From: Gilvimarinus algae
GTDB lineage: Bacteria; Pseudomonadota; Gammaproteobacteria; Pseudomonadales; Cellvibrionaceae
Length of the DNA stretch: 64,000 bases
Assembly (NCBI RefSeq): GCF_030518215.1
Contig: NZ_JAULRT010000032.1
Span: forward strand, 62,001-126,000
Direction of reading: 5' to 3'
Part shown: in pieces, positions 10,031 to 62,302 of the stretch
How positions within the stretch are numbered: position 1 is the first letter of the stretch
Layout of the letters: each line of letters starts with the position of its first letter
Program-made: the position numbers and the translations under genes
The notes under the pieces: model-generated
The model's database searches: none
Told to the model about the DNA's origin: nothing
What the model saw: only the letters and a program-made list of their open reading frames with translations

Positions 10031-10780
10031 AGCCATCCCATCCAGCCGTTCTTTCGTCTTCTCCCACTTTGGCATTACCTGGTCCATTAACCGATAGAAC
10101 CGCTCGCTGTGGTTATGTTCAGCTATGTGGCAAAGCTCATGCAAAATCACGTAGTCAATACACTCACGAGGTGCTTTAACCAGGTGAGGGTTCAGGGTGA
10201 TTCGGCCATTGGGTGAGCAGCTGCCCCATTGAGTTTGCATGGTCAGTATGCGCAGCAGTGGTCGTTCCTCTACCCAAAGGGCTTGTCCTAGCATTGCATC
10301 GAGTCGCTTGGCGAAGGTTTCCTTGGCCCGCGCTTTGTACCAGTCTGTTAGTAGCTCTTTAACCTTGTCAGCGGACTTCGCTCGTACTGATACTTCCAGT
10401 TTTCCACGTAGTAGTTTCACGCCTTGAACCTGCTCAGGCGCTTCAATCACTTTCAGCAGGTACTGTTTTCCCAGGTAGTAATGGCTCTCACCACTGATGT
10501 ATTGCCGTGGTGTGGTGAATTCAAGCTGTTTGCGGAAATCCCGAAGCTGTTCGTATATCCAACGTCCACGCTTTTTAACAGCAGATAACACGGCTTTGCT
10601 CGCAGCCCCCTCAGGAGCCGATGCGATTACCCGACAGTCGGGATGAACCTTAATTAACACCTTGCCAGTCGCCTGCGGGCGCGTAACTCGCTCAAACGTA
10701 ATCTGCTCGTCGCCGTAGCGAAAGCTCATGGTCTGACTTTGAGGTTTAATCGGCACATTCATCTGGTTATACCCGTTCAA
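10013..10780 (-). CDS. YgjP-like (DUF45/M48-type) metallopeptidase
   Basis: Putative zinc metallopeptidase of the YgjP/WLM-like group. The 255-residue protein has the zinc motif H214-E-L-C-H218 followed by E221 in HELCHIAEH. Before it is the family segment TQWGSCSPNGRITLN, and the tail is HSERFYRLMDQVMP. Its start overlaps the hsdR stop by 4 nt, so it is the last gene of the restriction-modification operon. Genes of this family are often found directly after hsdR in type I systems; their role there is unknown. It ends convergently with tniQ1. Confidence 0.88.
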   Translation of the reverse strand: MNGYNQMNVPIKPQSQTMSFRYGDEQITFERVTRPQATGKVLIKVHPDCRVIASAPEGAASKAVLSAVKKRGRWIYEQLRDFRKQLEFTTPRQYISGESHYYLGKQYLLKVIEAPEQVQGVKLLRGKLEVSVRAKSADKVKELLTDWYKARAKETFAKRLDAMLGQALWVEERPLLRILTMQTQWGSCSPNGRITLNPHLVKAPRECIDYVILHELCHIAEHNHSERFYRLMDQVMPKWEKTKERLDGMASVYNS

Positions 10781-13700
10781 GCACCGTTCAACCCGACCCG
10801 AGTGATTTGAACAATCATCTCAACAATCTTCTTGGCCTGATCCATACCGCCACCAATGGCTTTGCATTCCTGGAACATGCGTGGCAGTAGCTTTTTACGG
10901 ATGTCGGCTTCAATGTTTTGGGGGTTGATGGAGTTCTCTGCAACGGAGGTTTCTACCGCCTGGTCAATTTCAAAGGCAACTTTGACCCACTTATCCTGAA
11001 CCTGCTGGTCGAAGACAGCCAAGGCTTCAGGCAGCACTTTCTTGAATACACCAAAGTAAGCCTGAGCATGGCGGTTCCCAGCAAAGGCATCGGGTATGTC
11101 GTTCAAGCGTCTGTCTTGAACTTGCTCTTCGAATTCACGGAACAGCATGTACTGTTTCAGAGGGTGGTCGAATAGTTTTTCAGCTTCCTCAATGGCCTGG
11201 CGCAGCAGCTTGGAGAACGCTTCCTGAGCATACGGATCGTCCCTTAGCTCTTGTTCTATCATGCGGGTTACGCGCGTTTTGATGATGTCGGTTTCGTTAC
11301 GGGTTTTATCTTCGCTCCAGTCTTCCGGCTGTTGCTTTTGCCCCATCTTGCCCACTTCATACACGCCACCAGGCTCTTTAACCTCGACACCCACCACATG
11401 CTTATCCAGCAGCTTTTTCACTTGTTCGGCGTATTCGTCGTAATCAATTCTCTCGCCCGCATCTTGCTGCACAAGTTGGCGCAGGCTGGAGAATTGCTTC
11501 ACGGTTTCTTTGTAGTGTCGACGATCCTGGTCGCTAAAGCTCTTGTCTTCAAAGAAGGTGGCGGATTGTAACGCTACCTTCAAGCAACTGGCGAAGGCTG
11601 TTAGGGCTTCGTAGAAGTCTTCACGCACCTTTAGATGCACGTCAACCAGCTCGCCTCCACGCTCTTCAATCTTTGGAACCAGCACCTGACGCAATTGCTC
11701 AATGTCGTTCTTGTTTTTAACGCCATCGAATATGGCCCATAGCTGCTTATAGAGCTGTGGCAGGCGCTTGTACTCGGTACTCATCTGGTTGTAGAGGCCG
11801 GCAATATCATTGATGTCGTAACCGCCCTGAGTGCGGGAGGCCAGATCCTGATATTTCTGGATGGTGGTATCCAGCTCAGCCAGAATGCCGCGATAGTCGA
11901 TGAGCAGACCAAACTTCTTCTTCGGGTGCAGGCGATTTACCCGTGCAATCGCCTGGATCAGGTTGTGCTCTTTCAGCGGTTTGTCGATATACAGCACAGC
12001 GTTTTTCGGCTCATCAAAGCCCGTGAGCAGCTTATCAACCACGATGAGTATCTTCAGTGAGTCATCTTTATCGAAGCGCTCTATCAGGTGTTTGGTGTAA
12101 GCCTGTTCATCCTGACTGCCTACGTTGTCTTTCCACCACTGAGTGACTTCCGGTGTGGTAGCCTCATCCACAGTCGTATTGCCTTCGCGACTATCTGGCG
12201 GGCTCATCACAACGGCCGATTCAAACAAGCCTGCTTCGTCGAGATACTTTTTGTACTTGATGGCAGATGCTTTGCTGTCGCAGGCTAACTGGCCTTTCAA
12301 ACCTTCGTCGATGTTCTTTACGAAATGGTTGGCAATATCCAGGGCAATCAAACGAATGCGGTCATCCGCACCGTATACCTGGCCTTTCTTGGCAAACTTG
12401 CGCTTTAGGTCGGCCTTTTGCTCCTCTGAAAGCCCTTCGGTAATACGCTCAAACCAACTGTCGATGGCGCGTTCATTCACATCCAGGTCGGGAATACGCT
12501 CTTCATACAGAAGCGGCGTTACCGTCTGGTCTTCCACCGCGCGTTGCATGGTGTAAGCATGCACAATGGGGCCAAACTTATTGGTGGTCTTGTCGTCTTT
12601 TAACAGTGGTGTGCCGGTGAAGGCGACAAAGGCAGCATTCGGCAGCGCCTGCTTCATACGAATATGGTTTTCACCACCTTGGCTGCGGTGGCCTTCATCA
12701 ATCAGCACAATGATGTCAGAGCTGTTGTTTACACACTCTGGCATTTTGGTAGCGGTATTAAACTTCTGGATGAGCGAGAAGATAATCCGCTCAGTGCCTT
12801 TGCCAATCTGTTCAGCCAAGCGTTTACCGGAGGTCGCCATGGCTGCTTCTTTGTCTTTCTTCCCGGCCAGTTCGCCGCCAGAGGCAAAGGTTTTGCTCAG
12901 CTGGGTTTCCAAATCTACCCGGTCAGTCACCACTACAATACGGCATTGCTTCAGGCTTTCGTGCAGGATCAGCGCCTTACTTAAAAACACCATAGTGAAT
13001 GACTTACCCGAACCCGTGGTGTGCCAAATCACACCGCCTTCACGGCCACCAGTGCTACTTCGGGTATTGATACGCTCAATTAGTCGCTTGATACCAAATA
13101 CCTGCTGATAACGGGCAACGATTTTGCCAGCCTTTTTATCGAACAAGGTGAAGTAACGGGTCATCTCCAGCAACCGAGTAGGGCTTAACAAGCTAATCAG
13201 TAATTGATCTTGCCCAGTAACCGCAAGTTCTCCCGCAGCAGTCAGGCTCTGGTACCAATCCAGGTCTTTTACCGGACGGTGGCTGAATAGGCCTGCCAAC
13301 TGTTCATCTTTGAGCGTTTTGTTTTTAATGGCGTACATCTCGGCATCTGTGATGTCTTCTTCACGCCAAGCAGCCCAGAACTTAGCGGGTGTGCCACAGG
13401 TACCATAACGGCCTTCGTTGCCGTTTATGGATAACAACATTTGGCTATAGGCGAACAATAACGGGATTTCATCATGGCGCTGATTACGCAGGCTTTGCGA
13501 AATGCCTTCGTCAATGGTGGGGCCTTTCTTGGCATTGCCATCCGGGCGCTTGGCTTCTATCACCACCAAAGGAATACCGTTTACAAAACACACAATATCG
13601 GGTCTGCGACTTTCCACTCCCCCCGAGCGGGTAACGGTAAATTCTTCGGTAAATACAAAGCTGTTATTCGCCGGGTTGTGCCAGTCAATCAGAGTGACAG

Positions 13701-14058
13701 TCGGGCTGGCCTTTTTACCATCCACAAACTCAGTGACGGAGATGCCATACAGCAGGTGGTTGTAGAGGCGCTCATTGGCAGATAACAGGCCTTCGTTAAG
13801 TGCGGGGCTACACACCTCGGCAATCAGGTTGTCGATAGCCTTTTCAGACAGCGGGTAGTTCTTACCCGCAAAGGTGAAAGTGCGCTTTTGCAGTTCACCA
13901 CGCAGTACCTGGCGTAACACCACCTCATCGGCCTTGCCACCACGAGCGGCTAACGCGAGTTCAGGAGAGAGGAACGACCACCCGAGGTTGGTCAATAACG
14001 TCAGGGCCGGTAACTTGGCACTGTATTCTTCCTGAAATTTGGGTGTGTATTGTGTCAT
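10777..14058 (-). CDS. hsdR: Type I restriction enzyme R subunit HsdR
   Basis: Restriction and DNA-translocation subunit, acting with HsdM2-HsdS. The 1093-residue protein has an N-terminal PD-(D/E)xK nuclease (RRPDIVCFVNGIPLVVIEAK, around residues 150-170). A SF2 helicase follows with Walker A TTGSGKSFTM near residue 348, a DEGHR box near 451, FTGTPL, and the motif VI-like QAIARVNRLHP. The C-terminal HsdR domain is complete. It starts 48 nt after the TIR-STAND gene rather than directly after hsdS, so the TIR-STAND gene is inside the operon. Confidence 0.96.
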   Translation of the reverse strand: MTQYTPKFQEEYSAKLPALTLLTNLGWSFLSPELALAARGGKADEVVLRQVLRGELQKRTFTFAGKNYPLSEKAIDNLIAEVCSPALNEGLLSANERLYNHLLYGISVTEFVDGKKASPTVTLIDWHNPANNSFVFTEEFTVTRSGGVESRRPDIVCFVNGIPLVVIEAKRPDGNAKKGPTIDEGISQSLRNQRHDEIPLLFAYSQMLLSINGNEGRYGTCGTPAKFWAAWREEDITDAEMYAIKNKTLKDEQLAGLFSHRPVKDLDWYQSLTAAGELAVTGQDQLLISLLSPTRLLEMTRYFTLFDKKAGKIVARYQQVFGIKRLIERINTRSSTGGREGGVIWHTTGSGKSFTMVFLSKALILHESLKQCRIVVVTDRVDLETQLSKTFASGGELAGKKDKEAAMATSGKRLAEQIGKGTERIIFSLIQKFNTATKMPECVNNSSDIIVLIDEGHRSQGGENHIRMKQALPNAAFVAFTGTPLLKDDKTTNKFGPIVHAYTMQRAVEDQTVTPLLYEERIPDLDVNERAIDSWFERITEGLSEEQKADLKRKFAKKGQVYGADDRIRLIALDIANHFVKNIDEGLKGQLACDSKASAIKYKKYLDEAGLFESAVVMSPPDSREGNTTVDEATTPEVTQWWKDNVGSQDEQAYTKHLIERFDKDDSLKILIVVDKLLTGFDEPKNAVLYIDKPLKEHNLIQAIARVNRLHPKKKFGLLIDYRGILAELDTTIQKYQDLASRTQGGYDINDIAGLYNQMSTEYKRLPQLYKQLWAIFDGVKNKNDIEQLRQVLVPKIEERGGELVDVHLKVREDFYEALTAFASCLKVALQSATFFEDKSFSDQDRRHYKETVKQFSSLRQLVQQDAGERIDYDEYAEQVKKLLDKHVVGVEVKEPGGVYEVGKMGQKQQPEDWSEDKTRNETDIIKTRVTRMIEQELRDDPYAQEAFSKLLRQAIEEAEKLFDHPLKQYMLFREFEEQVQDRRLNDIPDAFAGNRHAQAYFGVFKKVLPEALAVFDQQVQDKWVKVAFEIDQAVETSVAENSINPQNIEADIRKKLLPRMFQECKAIGGGMDQAKKIVEMIVQITRVGLNGA

Positions 14059-14106: not shown

Positions 14107-16644
14107 TTATCCAATACGTTTCTGTTTTTGCTCTATTAGTTGCTGTCCTTTGACTGACAGTCCAAGTAACTTTGATAGCTGTTGTTTCTCTTTATAATCG
14201 ACAGGGAACATATAAATATGTTGAATGACGAGCTCTTTCAAAATCCGAGTGCAAACAAAGTTTCCTTTTAACTTCTCAGCGCTTTGAGTGATGCTTTTCA
14301 TATCAATTCGCTTCAAAAAATGGAGTTCTATAGATTGTTTAAGAAGTAGCAGGGCTGGGGTCGATTCTTTCTCTTCTATTGCTTTATATATTTCCATTGC
14401 CTCTTTAGACCCGACTGATGTGGCAATTTTTCGAACTACGCTATTTATTACGCCGTAGGTTAGGTGAAGGTAAGCATTCTCTGCATGCTTCTCAATTTCT
14501 CCGTTTGTAAGTCCGGGATTCTCCGATAGATGAGCAGAAATAACTTTAACTATTTCATTTTTGGCTACATCAGATATGGCAATAAAGTACTTTAGAAACC
14601 TAAGTCCAGCATTAATGCCGTTTTCAGCAAGGATATTTAGAGAATCCCTTTTTAAAGATGCATGGCGATTTCTAATAATTTGACCAGCTATCTCCATTCC
14701 TTTAAAGGTTTTGTTTATGTCAGCTAGTATGTCTGGCGATTCGGATTCATCCAAATCATCGTGAGATCGTTCATTAGTATCAAGTTTTTCGTTATAAGCA
14801 TCTCGCTCCTTCTGAACTTCTCTCTGCTCCAAAATAAGCTCAGGAATTTGTTTCATGAAATCATCCATAAAAGAAAGCTGCTCTTTTTCAAGTGTTGCAG
14901 ATGGGTGTTCATTGAATAATTCAGAGAGTACATTCTGGAGGAGATTTATCACCCAACCATCCTTGGTGTGATGAGCAACAAATATCAAAATGTTGGCGAA
15001 ATCTTCTCTGTGGAGATTTTCTAAAAGGTAATTTACTTGTCTTTGGATGTCTGTATTTTCCAAATAGGACTCAGAAATCTTTTTCCCAACGAAAAAATAG
15101 TATATGTATGGGTATTTAAATCCTGTTCTAAATTCTTTCACTTGTAAGATTGAATGATTTGATAGTTTGGAGATGACATTCTCTTTGTTTACATCAAGGT
15201 ACACTTTGCAATAGTCTTCAAAAAAACTATCCAGTTGCGCCTCGTTGGGGTTTTGGTTGTTTGAAAATATCCACCAAGCAAGCTCAGTCAATACGTTCAA
15301 ATATTTATCAAATTCCCTCTCATTTATCTTGGCATTTTCGAATGACTGATAAATAAGTTGTTGATAGCAATGCCCGTGCGAAGAAAGCTCAAGATTTAAC
15401 TTGGAGTGTGCTTCAAACATTTGGAGCAACATTAAAATGTAAATAGGCTTCGGCGGGACTATATTTTTCTTTACAATTGAGTTTATCGTTTCCTTGAGTT
15501 CATCACATCTAGTATAGAGATCTTCTTCAGATATGGTTTGTTCTATTCCAAGCGATATCCATCGCTGAATAATTTCTTCTCTTTTTTTATTTCCAAGTCC
15601 TATAAGCTCGGCTCGCCCGAAATCATCGAGTGCAGGAATTTCATCCACAAGCAAAGAGAAAGCTAGCTGATGCGTAAATATACACTTATCAGCAAAAAGG
15701 CATATATCACTTATGAATTTATCTCGATATCTTCGGTTGAGCCCTATTTCATCAATATTGTCAATTATTATAATTTTTTCTTGTGAGGCCATGAAATCTT
15801 CATATGTTAGTCCCTCATACTGCCGATCCAGCTCTTTCTTAATTATAACCTCAGGGTTTGCATCCTTAACCTTGCTACCTTCCAGTATTAAGGGAGTTTT
15901 TGATTGAGTAAGAAATGATTTGTAGTAGTGTTTTAAAAGTGAGGTTTTACCTTGCTGTTCCTCGCCAAATACGAGGAACCTTTCAAATTTGTTCGGTAAA
16001 GAGCAAGCGCTCCTATATATTCTTAATTCGTTCCTCGCGTCGTCATTAATTTCAACGTCAGGAATGATGTAGATATCTGGAAGTCTTATTCTGTCTACTT
16101 TTCTGTGGGTTAGTGTTATTTCTGTGTCGTCTAGCCATTCCCGTATGGATTCGGATGGAGATATTTTTCCTTCTTTGACCAAATTAATGGATTCATTTGC
16201 TTTTGGCTGGAACTCACTTATATGTCTTTTAATCCCCTGAATGACGTCAACCCAGGCTTCATCATTATTCGGTGATGCTACTGGCTTAACATCTTTGGGG
16301 AGGCCTTGTAATTTAGAAAGTGGTGAATCCGACCACTCAACGGCTCGAATAACAATAGGTATAAGTTGCGCTTCTCCCGAGTTGTGCATTGATAAAGCTG
16401 TTTCTGCTTCAATATTCACGCAATAGTCAGAACTCAAGAACGATGAGCTGATTAAAAATAAAATCAAATCAGAATTTTTAAGGTTTCCATTGATTTCATG
16501 GCTCCAATCAGTTCCGGGGATTATTTTTCTATCATTCCATTCACTGATAGCTCCCGATCTTACAAGACCGGACAAGTGTTCAGTTAAGCTGTTCTTAAAC
16601 TCTTCATCTTTATGTGAGTAGCTGATAAAAACTTTTGTAGGCAT
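14107..16644 (-). CDS. TIR-domain STAND-like NTPase (putative anti-phage effector)
   Basis: Predicted immune protein: an N-terminal TIR domain (about residues 1-130) with FISYSHKDEEF, SDLILFLISSSFLSSDYC and candidate catalytic Glu79 or Glu81. After it comes a P-loop NTPase with Walker A GEEQQGKTSL near residue 226 and Walker B IIIIDNIDEIG near 287. The remaining ~500 residues are helical with an acidic segment near 620-660. TIR domains in bacterial immunity cleave NAD+; STAND modules act as phage sensors. It lies between hsdS (14 nt upstream) and hsdR on the same strand with SD GGA before ATG 16644. Base composition is much more AT-rich than the hsd genes, suggesting separate acquisition. Function is inferred from domain architecture. 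Confidence 0.85.
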   Translation of the reverse strand: MPTKVFISYSHKDEEFKNSLTEHLSGLVRSGAISEWNDRKIIPGTDWSHEINGNLKNSDLILFLISSSFLSSDYCVNIEAETALSMHNSGEAQLIPIVIRAVEWSDSPLSKLQGLPKDVKPVASPNNDEAWVDVIQGIKRHISEFQPKANESINLVKEGKISPSESIREWLDDTEITLTHRKVDRIRLPDIYIIPDVEINDDARNELRIYRSACSLPNKFERFLVFGEEQQGKTSLLKHYYKSFLTQSKTPLILEGSKVKDANPEVIIKKELDRQYEGLTYEDFMASQEKIIIIDNIDEIGLNRRYRDKFISDICLFADKCIFTHQLAFSLLVDEIPALDDFGRAELIGLGNKKREEIIQRWISLGIEQTISEEDLYTRCDELKETINSIVKKNIVPPKPIYILMLLQMFEAHSKLNLELSSHGHCYQQLIYQSFENAKINEREFDKYLNVLTELAWWIFSNNQNPNEAQLDSFFEDYCKVYLDVNKENVISKLSNHSILQVKEFRTGFKYPYIYYFFVGKKISESYLENTDIQRQVNYLLENLHREDFANILIFVAHHTKDGWVINLLQNVLSELFNEHPSATLEKEQLSFMDDFMKQIPELILEQREVQKERDAYNEKLDTNERSHDDLDESESPDILADINKTFKGMEIAGQIIRNRHASLKRDSLNILAENGINAGLRFLKYFIAISDVAKNEIVKVISAHLSENPGLTNGEIEKHAENAYLHLTYGVINSVVRKIATSVGSKEAMEIYKAIEEKESTPALLLLKQSIELHFLKRIDMKSITQSAEKLKGNFVCTRILKELVIQHIYMFPVDYKEKQQLSKLLGLSVKGQQLIEQKQKRIG

Positions 16645-16658
16645 ATTTAGTCCTTTAA

Positions 16659-17909
16659 TTAATTGATAACCCGTCGCTTACCCGTTAACAGCTGCTGCAT
16701 CAGGGCTTTTTTCTCTTGCTTCAAGCGATCCAACTTCTGTTGCAAGCTGGTAATCTTTTGGTCTGCGATCGAAATTACATCTGCAATTTTTTGCTGCTCC
16801 TCAAGGGGAGGGATCCGAAAATGAACTTTATTGATCCCGCCGATAGAAAGGCCAAACCTGGTTGCACCTGTCGCCAAGGTAAAGAAGTAATATCTAGTTT
16901 TTGGCAATGAAAACAGATAATTCAGAAAAGCCCCTTTTGCTGTTTCAGTTTTAGGTCTCACGATCGCAAGGTGATAGCCACATACCACTCCTCCAAGATC
17001 CTCCGATACCAATGCAGGCACTGCAATGTCTCCAGGAGTCTCTGAGTCTTTAGTAATAATCACATCGTTAATTTGCAAAGTATATTTTTCAATCTCAGCA
17101 GGCTTCGCAGTGGCTTTCATAAAGTTCAAGCCGCGCGTAATGTGATGGTTGTAGTAAACATCGGTGTAGTTACAGAGCTCTACAGGAATCTCACCATCTA
17201 TAGTTTTTTTATCAACTGGGCTTACAATTACCTGTGCGGCATCAGTCAAAAAGTGATCTTTCCACTCCCCGCTAAACCTAACCCCATTCTTATCCAGTAG
17301 GCGCTTTTTGCCGGTGAGCAGTTGTTGCATCAGGGCTTTTTTCTGTTGCTGACTGTTTGTGAGCAGCTGTTCGGTGGTGTTGATAGCCTTATCCCAGGCG
17401 GAAAGGATTTGGGCGATTTTCTTTTGTTCGGGATATGGGGGTATCGGTGCCGGGAGATCCTGAACTTGCTTGGCTGATAAATTTGCTTGCTTCGTCCCGC
17501 CAGGGAAGGAATAGAGACGCGATAATATTATTTCGCTTCTCAAAAGGCTGAGTAGAAAGCCCGTACTAGTCTTATCTTTAGGGACGAACTTCATCACTCG
17601 TTGATTAAGAAGTGATTCCGGCGCACTTTTAGGAATTTCAACAGTGAATCCATAATCTCGCTTACCCATTGTGCCAGTCATCGACATGACTAGGTCACCA
17701 GGTTTTACGACGAATCGCTTGTATTCGTCTTTATACGTCGCGGGAAGAAATACTGGGCTACGTTCAAAATCAAGAGTATTTTGGTACAGATTTCCCATCC
17801 TTAATAGAGGAATCCCATTTGGCGTAAAGTCCGTACTTTTGAATGCATAACCCATAACAGTATCTGCAAGGTCACTCAGTGAACCAATCGTCCAATCCCT
17901 AGGCACCAT
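16659..17909 (-). CDS. hsdS: Type I restriction enzyme specificity subunit HsdS
   Basis: DNA-recognition subunit. Two target-recognition domains are each followed by a conserved coiled-coil: first IPPYPEQKKIAQILSAWDKA near residues 155-175, then IPPLEEQQKIADVISIADQK near 370-390, each ending with QEKKALMQQLLTGK-type repeats (QQKKALMQQLLTGKKR; KALMQQLLTGKRR). The 416-residue length is normal. The start ATG at 17909 overlaps the hsdM stop by 11 nt. TRD regions are more AT-rich than the coiled-coil parts, as usual for exchanged TRDs. Confidence 0.95.
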   Translation of the reverse strand: MVPRDWTIGSLSDLADTVMGYAFKSTDFTPNGIPLLRMGNLYQNTLDFERSPVFLPATYKDEYKRFVVKPGDLVMSMTGTMGKRDYGFTVEIPKSAPESLLNQRVMKFVPKDKTSTGFLLSLLRSEIILSRLYSFPGGTKQANLSAKQVQDLPAPIPPYPEQKKIAQILSAWDKAINTTEQLLTNSQQQKKALMQQLLTGKKRLLDKNGVRFSGEWKDHFLTDAAQVIVSPVDKKTIDGEIPVELCNYTDVYYNHHITRGLNFMKATAKPAEIEKYTLQINDVIITKDSETPGDIAVPALVSEDLGGVVCGYHLAIVRPKTETAKGAFLNYLFSLPKTRYYFFTLATGATRFGLSIGGINKVHFRIPPLEEQQKIADVISIADQKITSLQQKLDRLKQEKKALMQQLLTGKRRVIN

Positions 17910-19443
17910 ATCCCAACTCCTCCAGATACTTAGCCATCTCGGTTTCCAGCTCGCTCAGTTGAGCTTTTAGCTGTTCACGCTCTGCACGTACCGCCATCAA
18001 GTCGATTTCTTCCTCTTCTTCAAAGGTATCGACATAACGCGGGATGTTCAGGTTGTAGTCGTTCTCTTTGATCTCTTCGAGGCTGGCGACGTAGGCGTAT
18101 TTATCGATATCTTTACCTGCACGATACGTCTCAACTACTTTGGCGATATTGTCTTCAGTTAGCAGATTCTGGTTTTTACCGGCTTTGAAGTCGCGGCTGG
18201 CATCAATAAACATAACCCCTGGATTCCCGCCTTCGCGGGAATGACGGTCGGTACGGAAGATCAGAATCGCCGCTGGAATACCGGTGCCGTAAAACAGCTT
18301 TTCTGGCAGGCCGATCACCGCATCTAGCAGGTTTTCGTCAATCAGTTGCTGGCGAATTTTTCCCTCAGACGAGCCACGGAATAACACGCCGTGCGGCACT
18401 ACCACGCCCATTCTTCCGCTTTTGGGCTTGAGGGTTTCGATCATGTGCAGGATAAAGGCGTAGTCGCCTTTGGTTTTTGGCGGTACACCTCGGCGGAAGC
18501 GGCTGAACTTGTCGTGCTCGGCTTCGTCGTGACCCCATTTATCCAGACTGAACGGAGGGTTGGCGGTTACGATGTCAAACAGCATCAAGTCGCCATTTTT
18601 ATCGAGCAGCTTGGGGTTGCGGATGGTGTCGCCCCATTCAATTTTGTGGTTGTCTTCGCCGTGTAGGAACATGTTCATTTTTGCCAGTGACCAGGTGGAG
18701 CCAATGGCCTCTTGCCCATACAGGGCGTATTGCTTGCTGCCGTGGTTGGCCACGACCTTGCGGCCACACTTCATCAGCAGCGAGCCAGAACCGCAGGCGG
18801 GGTCGCAAATGCTGTCACCCGGTTGTGGGTCTAACAACTCGGCGATCAGGTCACTGACTTCGGGCGGGGTATAAAACTCACCGGCTTTCTGGCCACCACT
18901 GGCCGCGAAGTTTTTAATCAGGTATTCATAGGCGTTACCAATCACATCCAGCGTACCGACGCGGCTGGGTTTAAGGTTAAGCTCGGGTTTGGCAAAGTCT
19001 TCCAACAGGTGACGCAGAATAGTGTTCTTTTGCTTTTCTTCACCCAATTTGTCGGTATTAAAGCTGATGTCCTGGAATACGCTCTTACCAGCATCTTTTA
19101 ACTTTGTGCCGTTGGCTTCTTCAATGGCGTGCAACGCCTGGTCGATACGCTCACCGTTACCGGGTTCGTGGCGGTGCTCCCACAGCGTGTAAAAACTTGC
19201 GATTTTAGGTAGAACGAAGCGCTCATTCTTCATCATTTCTTCGATGAGTTCCGGCTCGTCGCCGTATTCGGCTTTGTAGCCATCGTAGTGATCCTGCCAT
19301 ACATCGGAGATGTATTTGAGGAACAGCATGGTAAGGATGAAGTCTTTATAGGTGTCGGCGCTGATGGTGCCACGGAAGGTATCGCAGGCGTTCCAGAGCG
19401 CTTTGTTAATACTGTCTTGGTTGATTGTGTCGATAGTGCTCAT
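17899..19443 (-). CDS. hsdM: Type I restriction enzyme methylase HsdM
   Basis: N6-adenine methyltransferase subunit. The 514-residue protein has the N-terminal HsdM helical domain (SINKALWNACDTFRGTISA). The SAM motif DPACGSGSLL is near residue 212 and the catalytic NPPF is near residue 295. An unusual point is residues about 399-410 (DRHSREGGNPGV), an in-frame insert encoded by a palindromic repeat, between IPAAILIFRT and MFIDASRDF, which are normally almost adjacent. The frame is preserved, and the site is a surface loop by family alignment from memory. It sits 15 nt after the single-TRD HsdS-like gene and overlaps hsdS. Confidence 0.95.
   Translation of the reverse strand: MSTIDTINQDSINKALWNACDTFRGTISADTYKDFILTMLFLKYISDVWQDHYDGYKAEYGDEPELIEEMMKNERFVLPKIASFYTLWEHRHEPGNGERIDQALHAIEEANGTKLKDAGKSVFQDISFNTDKLGEEKQKNTILRHLLEDFAKPELNLKPSRVGTLDVIGNAYEYLIKNFAASGGQKAGEFYTPPEVSDLIAELLDPQPGDSICDPACGSGSLLMKCGRKVVANHGSKQYALYGQEAIGSTWSLAKMNMFLHGEDNHKIEWGDTIRNPKLLDKNGDLMLFDIVTANPPFSLDKWGHDEAEHDKFSRFRRGVPPKTKGDYAFILHMIETLKPKSGRMGVVVPHGVLFRGSSEGKIRQQLIDENLLDAVIGLPEKLFYGTGIPAAILIFRTDRHSREGGNPGVMFIDASRDFKAGKNQNLLTEDNIAKVVETYRAGKDIDKYAYVASLEEIKENDYNLNIPRYVDTFEEEEEIDLMAVRAEREQLKAQLSELETEMAKYLEELGYGA
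18221..18247. repeat. REP-like palindrome inside hsdM
   Basis: ATTCCCGC (18223-18230), loop CTTC, GCGGGAAT (18235-18242): a perfect 8-bp inverted repeat within GGATTCCCGC..GCGGGAATGACGG. This is the widespread gammaproteobacterial/proteobacterial intergenic repeat, whose translation reads HSREGGNP. Here it lies in a coding sequence and keeps the frame. Confidence 0.85.
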
Positions 19444-19458
19444 CCACTTGTTCCTTAA

Positions 19459-20088
19459 TCAGGCTTTTGCCGAGTTCTTGTTAGTTGATGTGTGGTTGCC
19501 AGATTTCGCCTCTTGGCTATAAAGGTCTAGGGCGATAGCTGTCATTATCTTTTTGCTATTTCGTAGTAGTTGCTCGGCTAGCTGCTGCTCATTGCTCATT
19601 GCGGTGCTGAGTCCAATGATGGCATGTTGATCTTCTATGGGGGGTACCATTATCGGAGCGTTTTCCAGTACGGACCGTCGAATGCTTTTAGCTAAAGTGC
19701 CTTCTGCGCCCTGCTCAAAGTGCTTCTGGCAGGGTTGTTGGTTTAGTAGCCAGGCTAGGTAGCCTGGCAGCACTAGGTTGTTTTTTGTCCTAACAATAAA
19801 AAAATGTGGGGCGGCTACGGCTTGCTTCTTGGCCTTTAATAGTGTGCCATCCACTAATACGGCGTAATTTTGGCTTCCTTTGGCTGCTACTAAAATGTCG
19901 CCTTCTTGCAGCCAGTTTGGGGATTTCTTGCCGGCCAGGCTGGTTGGAGTACATGAGTCCCAGTTAATGCCTTTTTGTGGCTGGACATCCTTAAGTTGTA
20001 GTGCAACTACGACGGAGTCTTCCGTATGCACGATTCTTCCGCGAAATGGATGGCCGGCGGTTATTTTGGCGACTTCGGAGAGTTTCAT
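19459..20088 (-). CDS. Single-TRD HsdS-like protein (restriction endonuclease subunit S family)
   Basis: A 209-residue protein with one target-recognition domain only. It opens MKLSEVAKITAGHPFRGR and contains LQLKDVQPQKGINW, LQEGDILVAAKGS, LPGYLAWLLNQ, and IMVPPIEDQHAIIGLSTAM followed by a short helical tail. These match half of an HsdS. It is the first gene of the operon, 15 nt ahead of hsdM, and a full hsdS is also present. So it could act as an alternative specificity half, or as a DNA-binding regulator of the operon; neither is shown. No Shine-Dalgarno is visible because the start codon sits at the edge of a 14-bp palindrome. Confidence 0.82.
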   Translation of the reverse strand: MKLSEVAKITAGHPFRGRIVHTEDSVVVALQLKDVQPQKGINWDSCTPTSLAGKKSPNWLQEGDILVAAKGSQNYAVLVDGTLLKAKKQAVAAPHFFIVRTKNNLVLPGYLAWLLNQQPCQKHFEQGAEGTLAKSIRRSVLENAPIMVPPIEDQHAIIGLSTAMSNEQQLAEQLLRNSKKIMTAIALDLYSQEAKSGNHTSTNKNSAKA

Positions 20089-20121
20089 ATATTTGCATCA
20101 TTGGTGTTGATGCAAATATAT
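20087..20121. promoter_or_regulatory. Perfect 14-bp palindrome over the RM-operon promoter and start codon
   Basis: ATATATTTGCATCA (20087-20100), 7-nt spacer, TGATGCAAATATAT (20108-20121). The ATG of the first RM gene (20086-20088, minus strand) begins at the edge of one arm. The other arm overlaps the likely -10 region. Acts either as a repressor operator or as a hairpin at the 5' end of the transcript. Confidence 0.8.
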
Positions 20122-20146
20122 TGGGGGTTATTTGTCTGAGTGTCAA
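20118..20146 (-). promoter_or_regulatory. Predicted sigma70 promoter of the RM operon
   Basis: On the minus strand, TTGACA (20146-20141) is followed after about 17-18 nt by an AT-rich -10 candidate (CAATAT/AATATA, about 20123-20117). Transcription would begin inside the palindrome, so the mRNA would be nearly leaderless. Confidence 0.5.
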
Positions 20147-20151
20147 TAAAA

Positions 20152-20171
20152 ATGTGCATCATCCTTGATGC
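20152..20171 (-). terminator. Putative terminator of tniQ2
   Basis: Minus strand GCATCA, AGGA, TGATGC (20171-20156), followed by ACATTTTTATT. It overlaps the tniQ2 stop codon. The stem uses the same GCATCA/TGATGC words as the RM-operon palindrome. Confidence 0.5.
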
Positions 20172-21646
20172 TGCTTTTTAGTGTGTGTATTTATCTGTCT
20201 TAACTGCTTGATACTAAACGGTTTCGCTGTATTGGGATTGAATTCGTAAGTAAGAGAGCCTTTTTTCAATAATTTAAACACTTTAACGATGTCGAACCCC
20301 TGCTTTTGAAACCCTGCCAAGGTATAGCCGATACAGTCTGGTTGGGCTTTTTTTTGAAAGGATTGGATTTGCTTTATCCAGGCCTGTTTGTCGATAAGCC
20401 AGTCCCGATTTTGGTGGTTCGGGCGTTGGAGTGTTTTGATTAGCTTGCTTCTGAGCAATTGTAGTAGTTGGTGTCTTGATAGTTCGGTCTCCTTGCATGC
20501 TTGTGCGAAGCTCCAGTTTTCCTGATAAAGGTTGGCTAAAGCCTGAACCTCTGCTCTGTTGAAATAAGCTTTCCCCTTGAACGCTTGTAGTGTGAGTTTG
20601 CGTTGCTCAATGAGCTTTTTGAGCCGCGGCTCCCGACACTCCAATATAGCCAGGGCTTCTTTTTGTGAAATAAGAGGCCGATCTTCGGTTGTTACATCGA
20701 GTCTTGTCAGGTTTTTGGTTTGCAGAGCTGTTGGCCAATTTAGGTCGATGTATTGGTCAAATGCGGCCTTGAGCCGCTTAATACCATTGTTTGCTTGTTG
20801 CTGATAGAGCTTTTCGTGGATGTCCCGGTAGTGCTTGTTAATGCCAAAGTGGCCTCGGCTGCTCATCGGGTTAACCAGGTATTGACTTAGTAGCTGGTGG
20901 AAGCCTCTTGGCCAGTACTTGAGAGACTCCACGGCCGTTGAATAATGTTGGGATATGGTTAGATTGTCCATTTGGGCGGGGTTGAACCGCCCGCCTTCCG
21001 TAAGCCTATGTTGGTAATGGGCGATAAACTGCACCATGCTCACTACTTCAGATAGGTTAAGGTCTTGGAGTGCGGCTGGGTGGCCCTTGAGAGCAGGCCT
21101 ACCTTCGGCAAGTCGGTAGATCAGTGAGCTCAAGCTTAATGCGCTGGAGTTGGCACTCTGCGTAGGAGCGTCGATTATAGGAGAATCTTCACTGAACTCC
21201 CGTAGGTGAGTGCGGTACCAGCTCAGCCGTTTGTGGGAGCTTGGGTCAGTGTCAACCAGCATCACCCTGTGATTATGGCACGCTGTGTACGCAATAATAC
21301 TCCATAGATATGAGCTGTACCCGTTCTCCTCTAGGCAAATTGAACAGACTTTGGGGTGCTTGACGAACAGTTTGGCTGAAGAGGTTGATTTTTTGTGCTG
21401 TCGATGCAGTGGGGCTGTTGGAGAGTTGGGTGTTTGGTTGATCCTCATTGCTGACAAGTACGTGTTCAAATCCTGCTCGCCAGTTATGAACTCAAGTGTC
21501 GGTATTCTCAAATTTTTCCAGTTGAGGCCTGCAAATTGGAGTAGATGACCAATGTGCAGAAAGCCGTTCGCTTCGCTCAGTCGGATAAGGTGGCTGATGA
21601 CACATTCGTCACCGTGTCTGTACGGACGGGCTAGTAACTTTCCCAT
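20159..21646 (-). CDS. TniQ/TnsD-type transposon targeting protein, long form (tniQ2)
   Basis: Second targeting protein of the element, 495 residues from ATG 21646. I chose this start because MGKLLARPYRHGDECVISHL is the canonical TniQ opening; an upstream in-frame ATG at 21676 adds 10 residues. The zinc site is Cys101, Cys104, Cys123, His126 (CSICLEENGYSSYLW, then ACHNHRVML). The C-terminal ~200 residues, with repeated helix-turn-helix-like segments (SQKEALAILECREPRLKKLI, then SFAQACKETELSRHQLLQLL), fit a TnsD-type DNA-binding extension. It is divergent from the regulator-tnsABC block. With tniQ1 present too, the element may have two target pathways. Confidence 0.85.
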   Translation of the reverse strand: MGKLLARPYRHGDECVISHLIRLSEANGFLHIGHLLQFAGLNWKNLRIPTLEFITGEQDLNTYLSAMRINQTPNSPTAPLHRQHKKSTSSAKLFVKHPKVCSICLEENGYSSYLWSIIAYTACHNHRVMLVDTDPSSHKRLSWYRTHLREFSEDSPIIDAPTQSANSSALSLSSLIYRLAEGRPALKGHPAALQDLNLSEVVSMVQFIAHYQHRLTEGGRFNPAQMDNLTISQHYSTAVESLKYWPRGFHQLLSQYLVNPMSSRGHFGINKHYRDIHEKLYQQQANNGIKRLKAAFDQYIDLNWPTALQTKNLTRLDVTTEDRPLISQKEALAILECREPRLKKLIEQRKLTLQAFKGKAYFNRAEVQALANLYQENWSFAQACKETELSRHQLLQLLRSKLIKTLQRPNHQNRDWLIDKQAWIKQIQSFQKKAQPDCIGYTLAGFQKQGFDIVKVFKLLKKGSLTYEFNPNTAKPFSIKQLRQINTHTKKQHQG

Positions 21647-21917
21647 GTCGCAATCTCGCTTGCCCCGCAATAGCATTGAATATGAGAATTATTGCTAATT
21701 AGGATGAGCTCTAGTCTCGCGTTGACTGCTGGTCAGCTATTCTCGCTGCCGAGCTTGGAGCTCCCCGCTCATGAGTATGCGGCGTCTTAAAATGTCATTA
21801 TCGTTACACGATGATGATATAAGTGATTGATATTGTTGAAATATTTTATCTCGGGCGAGTTGACAAGTGAAGTTAACCTACCTAAATTGCATAGCTTTTA
21901 TTAGCCGAGTTAATGTA

Positions 21918-22277
21918 ATGAGCCCGTTTGGAAGCCTGCTAAAGGAGTATTTGAGGTCTAGTAATTGTCAGCAAAAGGAGCTGGCTCGCTGCATGGGCTG
22001 GAGTCCCAGCTATATCTCTTTAATGGTCAATGGAAAGCGACAGCCGCCTGCGAAAGATAAGGTGCGCCAAATAGCGATAGCTCTTGATATGTCCGGAGAG
22101 GGGTATAAGAAGCTTAAAAAGGCAGCCGCTGAGTCAAGACGCTTAGTCGTAGCTCCCGGCGAGGTGTCCGCCGAACATATTGTGGCTATGAACCGTATGA
22201 ATGAATACTTACGAGAGGCCCCTGCTGAGAAGCAGGGGCGGATATTGTCAATTCTAGAGGGAGATGCCGGTATGTAA
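21918..22277 (+). CDS. XRE-family HTH regulator
   Basis: A 119-residue DNA-binding protein with a Cro/CI helix-turn-helix in the N-terminal half: GSLLKEYLRSSNCQQKELAR then WSPSYISLMVNGKR. The C-terminal helical tail is not recognised. An in-frame upstream ATG at 21867 would add 17 residues, but MSPFGSLLKEYL fits the family N-terminus better. Located between tniQ2 and tnsA, reading with tnsABC. Small XRE regulators are found in the same position in other Tn7-like elements, where they control targeting or transposition genes; that role is inferred here. Confidence 0.82.
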   Translation: MSPFGSLLKEYLRSSNCQQKELARCMGWSPSYISLMVNGKRQPPAKDKVRQIAIALDMSGEGYKKLKKAAAESRRLVVAPGEVSAEHIVAMNRMNEYLREAPAEKQGRILSILEGDAGM

Positions 22278-61951: not shown

Positions 61952-62302
61952 ATGAAATGCCCGAAATGTTCAGAGAGGTTCAGTGCGAGAACGGCATTGT
62001 GCGAAGACTGGAAGAATCCTGAAAGGTCATTCGGTTGCCCTCATTGTGGTACTTTTTTTGTAAGAAAGGAGGAAAATAAAAGGAAAAGCCTTATTAATAC
62101 TATCCTCTTTGTTGGTGTCGGTCTCCAGGCTTTCAATATTTTTGTCAGGCACCTAAAAGACGTTGGAGACTTTCTGACCATGATTTACTCTCTGGTAATT
62201 CTCATTTCTCTTTTGCTAGTATTTGTTTTGTCAACCTGGCCCCTTTTCAGGGAGCTGAAAGAGTCCCCGACGAATCAGCATGATTATAGAAATTCGCCCT
62301 AA
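61952..62302 (+). CDS. Small zinc-ribbon membrane protein
   Basis: 116 residues: an N-terminal zinc ribbon with CPKCSERFSAR and CPHCGTFFVRK (two CxxC pairs). Two hydrophobic segments follow (INTILFVGVGLQAFNIFV, then FLTMIYSLVILISLLLVFVL) and a short charged tail. SD AGGAGG 10 nt before the ATG. Function unknown; such proteins are common in gammaproteobacteria. Confidence 0.8.
   Translation: MKCPKCSERFSARTALCEDWKNPERSFGCPHCGTFFVRKEENKRKSLINTILFVGVGLQAFNIFVRHLKDVGDFLTMIYSLVILISLLLVFVLSTWPLFRELKESPTNQHDYRNSP

Follow-up and report, generated by a model that had tools for sequence, protein, structure and literature searches.

Paired operators point to a half-HsdS protein as candidate autorepressor of a subfamily of type I restriction-modification operons

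Restriction-modification operons that regulate themselves are a known kind of system. Some methyltransferases, such as M.SsoII, carry an extra helix-turn-helix (HTH) domain with which they repress the genes that encode them, and the C proteins are small HTH proteins, encoded upstream, that exert autogenous control from operators at their own promoter. A C-like protein is also encoded upstream of a type I locus in Mycoplasma gallisepticum (PMC12707154, PMC5282649). According to the portion of PMC12255303 that concerns it, RptR, an all-helical, dimeric protein of 79 amino acids (aa), is encoded at the head of a type I operon, reads TAGCTA and represses its own promoter via two or more palindromic sites. 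Engineered half-HsdS proteins, which consist of one target recognition domain (TRD) and a conserved region, are described in part of PMC6158711 as dimers that replace HsdS and, together with HsdM, methylate the palindromic split site ACCN5GGT; the dimers are likened there, as an analogy only, to the repressor BmrR. Here we describe an apparent operator pair at a promoter that drives a type I restriction-modification operon in the gammaproteobacterium Gilvimarinus algae, located in a stretch of 64,000 nucleotides (positions 62,001 to 126,000 of contig NZ_JAULRT010000032.1, hereafter the window, numbered from its first letter), and argue from comparative analysis that the likely reader of these sites is the product of the first gene of the operon, a short HsdS-like protein (short S) with a single TRD.

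Among the described systems, the C proteins are nearest to this locus in layout, with a small protein encoded upstream and, in the window, two sites recognizable by sequence at the promoter, but the candidate reader has the TRD fold of a restriction enzyme and no Pfam HTH match. RptR is nearest in logic, being likewise the product of the first gene of a type I operon; in contrast to this all-helical protein, short S is a half-HsdS of 209 aa with mixed strands and helices in its AlphaFold2 (AF2) model, and its candidate target is a split site of 21 bp. Neither of the two has a TRD. The engineered half-HsdS proteins resemble short S in having one TRD and a conserved region and in reading a split palindrome as dimers, but they are active methyltransferases that take the place of HsdS, whereas short S coexists with a full-length HsdS and keeps its TRD when those of the latter change. 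Proteins of the M.SsoII type are also restriction-modification proteins regulating their own operon, but do so through a separate HTH domain and not through the target recognition domain. No repressor derived from HsdS or consisting of a TRD only is described in the titles or abstracts of the open-access matches listed. What would be unexpected in this otherwise familiar kind of operon is the protein in the role of regulator.

The operon is encoded on the minus strand in the order short HsdS-like gene, hsdM, full hsdS, a TIR/STAND gene and hsdR (Table 1). An earlier note on this DNA had pointed to a perfect 14-bp palindrome over the promoter and start codon, with TTGACA upstream, an ATG at the lower edge and no Shine-Dalgarno sequence, and all of this is borne out. 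The two arms (20087-20100 and 20108-20121) are complementary at 14 of 14 positions across a spacer of 7 nt; the palindrome shares 2 nt with the ATG (20088-20086 on the minus strand), TTGACA occupies 20146-20141, and no Shine-Dalgarno sequence is visible by eye ahead of the short S start codon. At the settings used, the region 8000-30000 contains two inverted repeats, this being the sole perfect one, and both arms with any 7 nt between them occur only once in the 4.2-Mb genome. The palindrome covers the expected transcription start; the -10 element at the expected position (20118-20123, minus strand, CAATAT) is weak, and the promoter was missed by a simple promoter scan. What the earlier note had missed is a second copy of the core TGCATCA-N7-TGATGCA, with 2 mismatches, on the opposite side of TTGACA. 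This copy (site 1) lies upstream of the -35 element and overlaps the stop codon of tniQ, at a centre-to-centre distance of 61 bp from the palindrome (site 2). In the whole genome, the core is found at one exact place, within site 2, and at 8 places when up to 2 mismatches are allowed, two of which are sites 1 and 2 themselves. This arrangement suggests that the palindrome is the promoter-proximal member of an operator pair that flanks the promoter of the type I operon.

Relatives of short S were detected in 25 of a sample of 293 genomes of the order and 21 of a sample of 398 genomes of the phylum (with the window's genome in both sets), in 59 plasmid records and in 91 loci from a genome collection, of which 80 were kept; 121 distinct loci remained once duplicates had been removed, L050 having given no match. 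Where the gene is annotated, it is mostly labelled restriction endonuclease subunit S, or else hypothetical protein. The upstream order of dyad, TTGACA, dyad and start codon recurs in many loci. Using a fixed word, namely two GCATCA-N7 dyads 50-80 bp apart, we examined 115 loci, divided into 69 closer ones (short S identity of at least 37%) and 46 distant ones (below this value), along with 8 held-out loci that were hand-picked from 60 records (59 plasmids and one E. coli) and whose promoters had been viewed before the test, the word being left unchanged; 22 promoters of hsdM loci without short S served as controls. The pair is present in 39 of the closer loci (mean 0.05 in shuffled sequences, maximum 1), in 5 of the distant ones, in 4 of the held-out loci (shuffle mean 0.02, maximum 1) and in none of the controls. 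The held-out loci that pass are plasmids of Acinetobacter junii, Proteus and Sphaerotilus and the locus of E. coli PM22 (L172, a near-copy of L057). Conservation of the palindrome upstream of homologous genes, which the earlier note had proposed as a check, is seen in more than half of the closer loci, in the form of a pair, and largely fails in the distant ones.

A word-blind test, in which two dyads with a common half-site were compared with 200 dinucleotide shuffles per locus, was applied to 116 loci, those with a protein of 150-260 aa and an upstream stretch of 125 nt or more. Between 34 and 36 of the 69 closer loci passed at a limit of 2 shuffles in 200 when the spacer was 3, 5 or 7, against 8 of 69 for a spacer of 11; 4 to 12 of 47 distant loci passed for spacers of 3 to 7, and none of the 22 controls did. 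In 51 of 119 loci TTGAC lies between -70 and -45; a more distal upstream stretch has it in 3 of 119, and none of the 22 controls does. Of the 39 loci, 31 have a TTGACA-like -35 element (5 or 6 of 6 positions) between the sites; the distance from site 1 to this element is 29 nt in 16 of the 31, and that from the element to site 2 is 32 nt in 17. A listing of the module (site 1, -35 element, site 2) took in only 17 loci, those with exact spacing. The distances between the centres, mostly about 61 bp, are in the 39 loci 57-64 bp in 32, 70-77 in 6 and 52 in one, and the empty interval at 65-69 hints at phasing, although the length of the promoter also limits the distances. Four loci of the close gamma group (L027, L054, L057 and L172) carry a third dyad, GCATCA-N6-ATGA, upstream of site 1 and some 150 nt ahead of the start codon; it might belong to a promoter further upstream or to a repression complex of larger size.

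An hsdM match follows close downstream on the same strand in 109 of 116 short S loci, and full hsdS comes next in most of those with enough sequence. Among 55 loci with 3 kb on each side, HsdM (54) and full HsdS (52) are the near-universal families; antisense shadow open reading frames are found in 31 to 50 loci, other same-strand downstream families in at most 19, and no upstream gene family in more than 4. A class-wide HsdM search yielded a match in 65 of 229 genomes. Among the 30 HsdM loci fetched, which are part of all HsdM matches and to which these linkage counts refer, all 8 with about 51% identity or more carry short S directly upstream (in L138 as a weak match only), and none of the 22 with 36-43% identity does in the upstream DNA covered, which in some of the fetched loci amounts to only about 0.8 kb. 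In L064 a gene for a 280-aa protein (L064:8591-9433), apparently DinD-like, intervenes between short S and hsdM; hsdM lies about 0.8 kb from short S in L005, L063, L065 and L073 as well.

Full-length HsdS is ruled out as the reader of the sites by TRD swaps at loci that keep GCATCA operators. In six such loci, with short S proteins 81-97% and HsdM proteins 92-96% identical, both TRDs of the full HsdS are 15-33% identical in 14 of the 15 pairs, and in the remaining pair TRD1 alone is shared (91%). Two more groups, of 3 and 5 loci, agree, with full-HsdS TRDs 14-28% identical. The dyads could alternatively be recognition sites of the full-length enzyme, which reads split sites too, or chance symmetry in AT-rich DNA, but the former is contradicted by the persistence of the operators while the TRDs swap and the latter is excluded by the shuffles and the hsdM controls, which makes this alternative highly improbable. 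Another candidate, already named in the earlier note, is the XRE protein of the adjoining Tn7-like element, a predicted DNA-binding regulator encoded 1.8 kb away. Its role as repressor is not borne out and seems scarcely credible: tblastn finds it in the window only and in none of 128 other short S loci (the upstream DNA covered being 1.3 kb or more in 113 and 3 kb or more in 65), many of which keep the operators, and no copy of the arm with up to 3 mismatches lies between tniQ and xre. As for other Tn7-type genes, weak TniQ or Tns relatives are present in L104, L107, L108, L167 and L169. Because full HsdS, the upstream families and the XRE protein are eliminated, short S, alone or with HsdM, is left as the candidate reader.

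Methylase_S is the only Pfam family matched by short S, with no match to an XRE-type HTH domain, and the AF2 model, with a mean predicted local distance difference test score (pLDDT) of 94.5, consists of one TRD followed by a C-terminal helix of 47 residues, that is, a half-HsdS; family and model agree with the description of the first gene product in the earlier note as a single-TRD HsdS-like protein. The best match among solved structures is Esub1 (Z 20.5; PDB 8VSQ, also 8VSR together with 'Prx'), followed by the DNA-containing structure of PacII S (Z 18.6) and by other S subunits, among them the type I S subunit 1YF2 (Z 14.8), in a list from which absence is no proof of absence. Esub1, a stand-alone protein of about the size of short S and its closest solved structure, aligns over 181 residues at 3.1 A, but with only 17% identity. 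The Prx of 8VSR is presumably the streptococcal phage protein paratox. Short S has the TRD fold of the HsdS family; the two TRDs and two conserved regions per chain that are typical of the family are absent from this protein of 209 aa with one TRD and one helix, and so is the variation of the TRD between similar operons, as seen in the six loci above. By analogy with the engineered half-HsdS precedent (PMC6158711, in the part cited), short S would probably read TGCATCA-N7-TGATGCA as a dimer.

Other short S lineages appear to carry other paired words, namely GCACTA, CAGTAG, GCAGTA and, in Bacteroidota and Chlorobiota, TTTGTA, and in one short S clade the spacer is one base shorter (N6). In a tree of 87 of the 127 short proteins (which omits 36 loci where no operator was called and the 4 whose calls were weak, L037, L067, L109 and L111), the six operator classes require 6 changes, compared with a minimum of 5 and a mean of 33.7 for shuffled labels; the labels of 25 uncalled loci were given by eye, and that of L072 was changed in the same way. 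The clades span taxonomic orders, with Photobacterium, Methylophaga, Hahella and E. coli, for example, in one clade, and the class consensus sequences of short S differ at the TRD stretches PFRG and SIRR. This clustering suggests that the operator word co-evolves with short S, as support and not as proof, given that plain descent also clusters. In the close gamma group, a spacer of 4 scores about as well as one of 7, because ATGAA continues the symmetry; calls of N4, and ties, were assigned to N7. The TTTGTA class is the least sure because its word, TTTGTAG in Bacteroidota, may be in part the promoter's own -7 element, which we take to be TAnnTTTG. The short S of L167 falls within the N6 clade, yet its operators score as N7, and in L165 (Gluconobacter oxydans pGOX1) the TTGACA ahead of short S is preceded by GCATGA-N7-TCATGC, a dyad that differs from the gamma word in one base and may represent a further operator class.

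Taken as a whole, the comparison makes it likely, in our judgment, that a half-HsdS autorepressor is built into this subfamily of type I restriction-modification operons, as the earlier note had envisaged in naming the short S protein as a possible repressor. Computation showed that the sites are paired, at set spacings, and conserved together with the short gene, and it excluded full HsdS and the conserved upstream genes as readers; dimerization, binding, the sign of the regulation and any participation of HsdM we infer. Two copies of short S would pair via the helix, in the manner of the two halves of a normal HsdS, and the resulting dimer would read the two-fold symmetric split site. Since site 2 covers the expected start, and the -35 and -10 elements lie between the sites, a dimer on site 2 should block initiation, whereas one on site 1, upstream of the -35 element, could add cooperativity or looping. 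The bound dimers would shut the promoter of their own operon, and this homeostatic loop would cap short S, HsdM, HsdS and HsdR together. With the presumed repressor encoded by the first gene of the M/S/R operon, an early burst in a naive cell and then a ceiling would be expected, with no lag for R alone; the delay of restriction after transfer that the earlier note had proposed is, from this gene order, doubtful.

The same note had offered an RNA hairpin at the start codon, blocking translation, as another mechanism. The arms do fold strongly as RNA in the window (-15.8 kcal/mol, z -6.0), but this strength is lost in the five homologue leaders folded (z of +1.6 in L003, +0.1 in L064, -0.8 in L012, -1.4 in L097 and -1.6 in L074), of which L012 and L097 keep a short stem; moreover, site 1 lies upstream of the promoter and its -35 element, and a transcript starting at the point expected from the -35 element would have its left arm cut. 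As a general mechanism the hairpin does not hold up, and we consider it very improbable.

Several points weigh against an autorepressor of this type. The fixed-word test is failed by 30 of the 69 closer, 41 of the 46 distant and 4 of the 8 held-out loci, which is owed in part to the N6 and GCAGTA classes; no operator could be called in 36 of 127 loci; one of the 22 controls passes when the cut-off is relaxed to 9 of 14; near-copies inflate the locus counts; and the assignment of four of the six operator classes was made by eye. Among pairs whose HsdM proteins are 85-90% identical, the median short S identity is 60 within the same operator class and 55 between different classes, and because these values differ so little, short S is weakly separated from HsdM as the reader, pairwise identity being nearly powerless for this purpose. 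HsdM as a partner of short S is possible, as is activation via site 1, and each of these points can be developed into a distinct explanation. In one, short S acts only with HsdM, with an M2-S2 complex occupying the operators and perhaps methylating them, so that the promoter senses free methyltransferase or how far the site is methylated. Short S accompanies one HsdM subfamily in the loci fetched, the half-sites contain adenines, and an engineered half-HsdS with HsdM forms an active palindromic methyltransferase (PMC6158711, same part); however, no result demands HsdM, and the rarity of the site, with 8 places in the genome at up to 2 mismatches, does not suggest a genome-wide methylation system, so that we regard this explanation as unlikely. 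In the other, which follows C-protein logic, scarce short S activates from the distal site 1 and abundant short S represses at site 2, so that late genes are delayed. The two sites, with the distal one centred upstream of the -35 element, are arranged as in the C-protein promoters covered by the cited part of PMC12707154, but in the window it is the proximal, blocking site that is perfect and the distal one that is weaker, and a consensus -35 element makes activation seem less needed, though the -10 element is weak; this scheme appears decidedly improbable. We accordingly retain the half-HsdS autorepressor as the preferred explanation of the operator pair.

The TIR/STAND protein, which is placed between hsdS and hsdR, matches PDC-S60 of padloc and ThsB-like proteins, and its gene may be under the same promoter control as the restriction-modification genes. 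The operon adjoins a Tn7-like element with TnsA-, TnsB- and TnsC-like genes, tniQ and the XRE gene. Relatives of the window's TnsB are encoded near the short S operon in L104, L107, L108, L167 and, weakly, L169; L104 also has relatives of TnsA, TnsC and TniQ, and L167 has genes annotated as a TnsD-family transposase and a DDE integrase, so the short S operon may often travel with Tn7-like elements. Site 1 contains a hairpin, GCATCA-AGGA-TGATGC (20156-20171), which is followed by T-rich sequence and resembles a weak terminator; the site may double as a weak terminator of tniQ.

Table 1. Features of the operon, its promoter and its surroundings in the window
Feature	Positions	Strand	Remarks
HsdR restriction subunit	10777..14058	-	
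TIR + STAND-NTPase protein	14107..16644	-	inside the operon
Full-length HsdS	16659..17909	-	two TRDs; specificity subunit of the enzyme
HsdM methyltransferase	17899..19443	-	
Short HsdS-like protein (short S), 209 aa	19459..20088	-	Pfam Methylase_S; AF2 model; fold match to TRD proteins; proposed autorepressor
Operator site 2 (putative)	20087..20121	.	perfect 14-bp palindrome, core TGCATCA-N7-TGATGCA at 20094-20114; similar placing in homologous loci
-35 element TTGACA	20141..20146	-	between site 1 and site 2
Operator site 1 (putative)	20155..20175	.	AGCAGCATCAAGGATGATGCA on the minus strand; 12/14 matches to the core
TniQ of the Tn7-like element	20159..21676	-	context; weak relative in only 1/128 other short S loci (L104)
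XRE-type HTH protein	21867..22277	+	context; in none of 128 other short S loci

In a wider and tentative perspective, in which our confidence is low, half-HsdS dimers might represent a separate class of sequence-specific transcription factors, derived from the DNA reader of a restriction enzyme and spread across several phyla, with operator words (GCATCA, GCACTA, GCAGTA, CAGTAG and TTTGTA) and spacers (N7 or N6) that evolve together with the TRD; some of these might employ HsdM as a co-repressor, such that the promoter reads free methyltransferase. If the half-HsdS autorepressor explanation itself holds, a gene that is mostly named 'restriction endonuclease subunit S' in NCBI records encodes a regulator, and a restriction specificity domain has turned into a transcription factor. 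The family would then provide a natural set of TRDs with target words that can be read from promoters, TRD specificity being otherwise obtained via the methylome, and would offer a handle to switch these operons.
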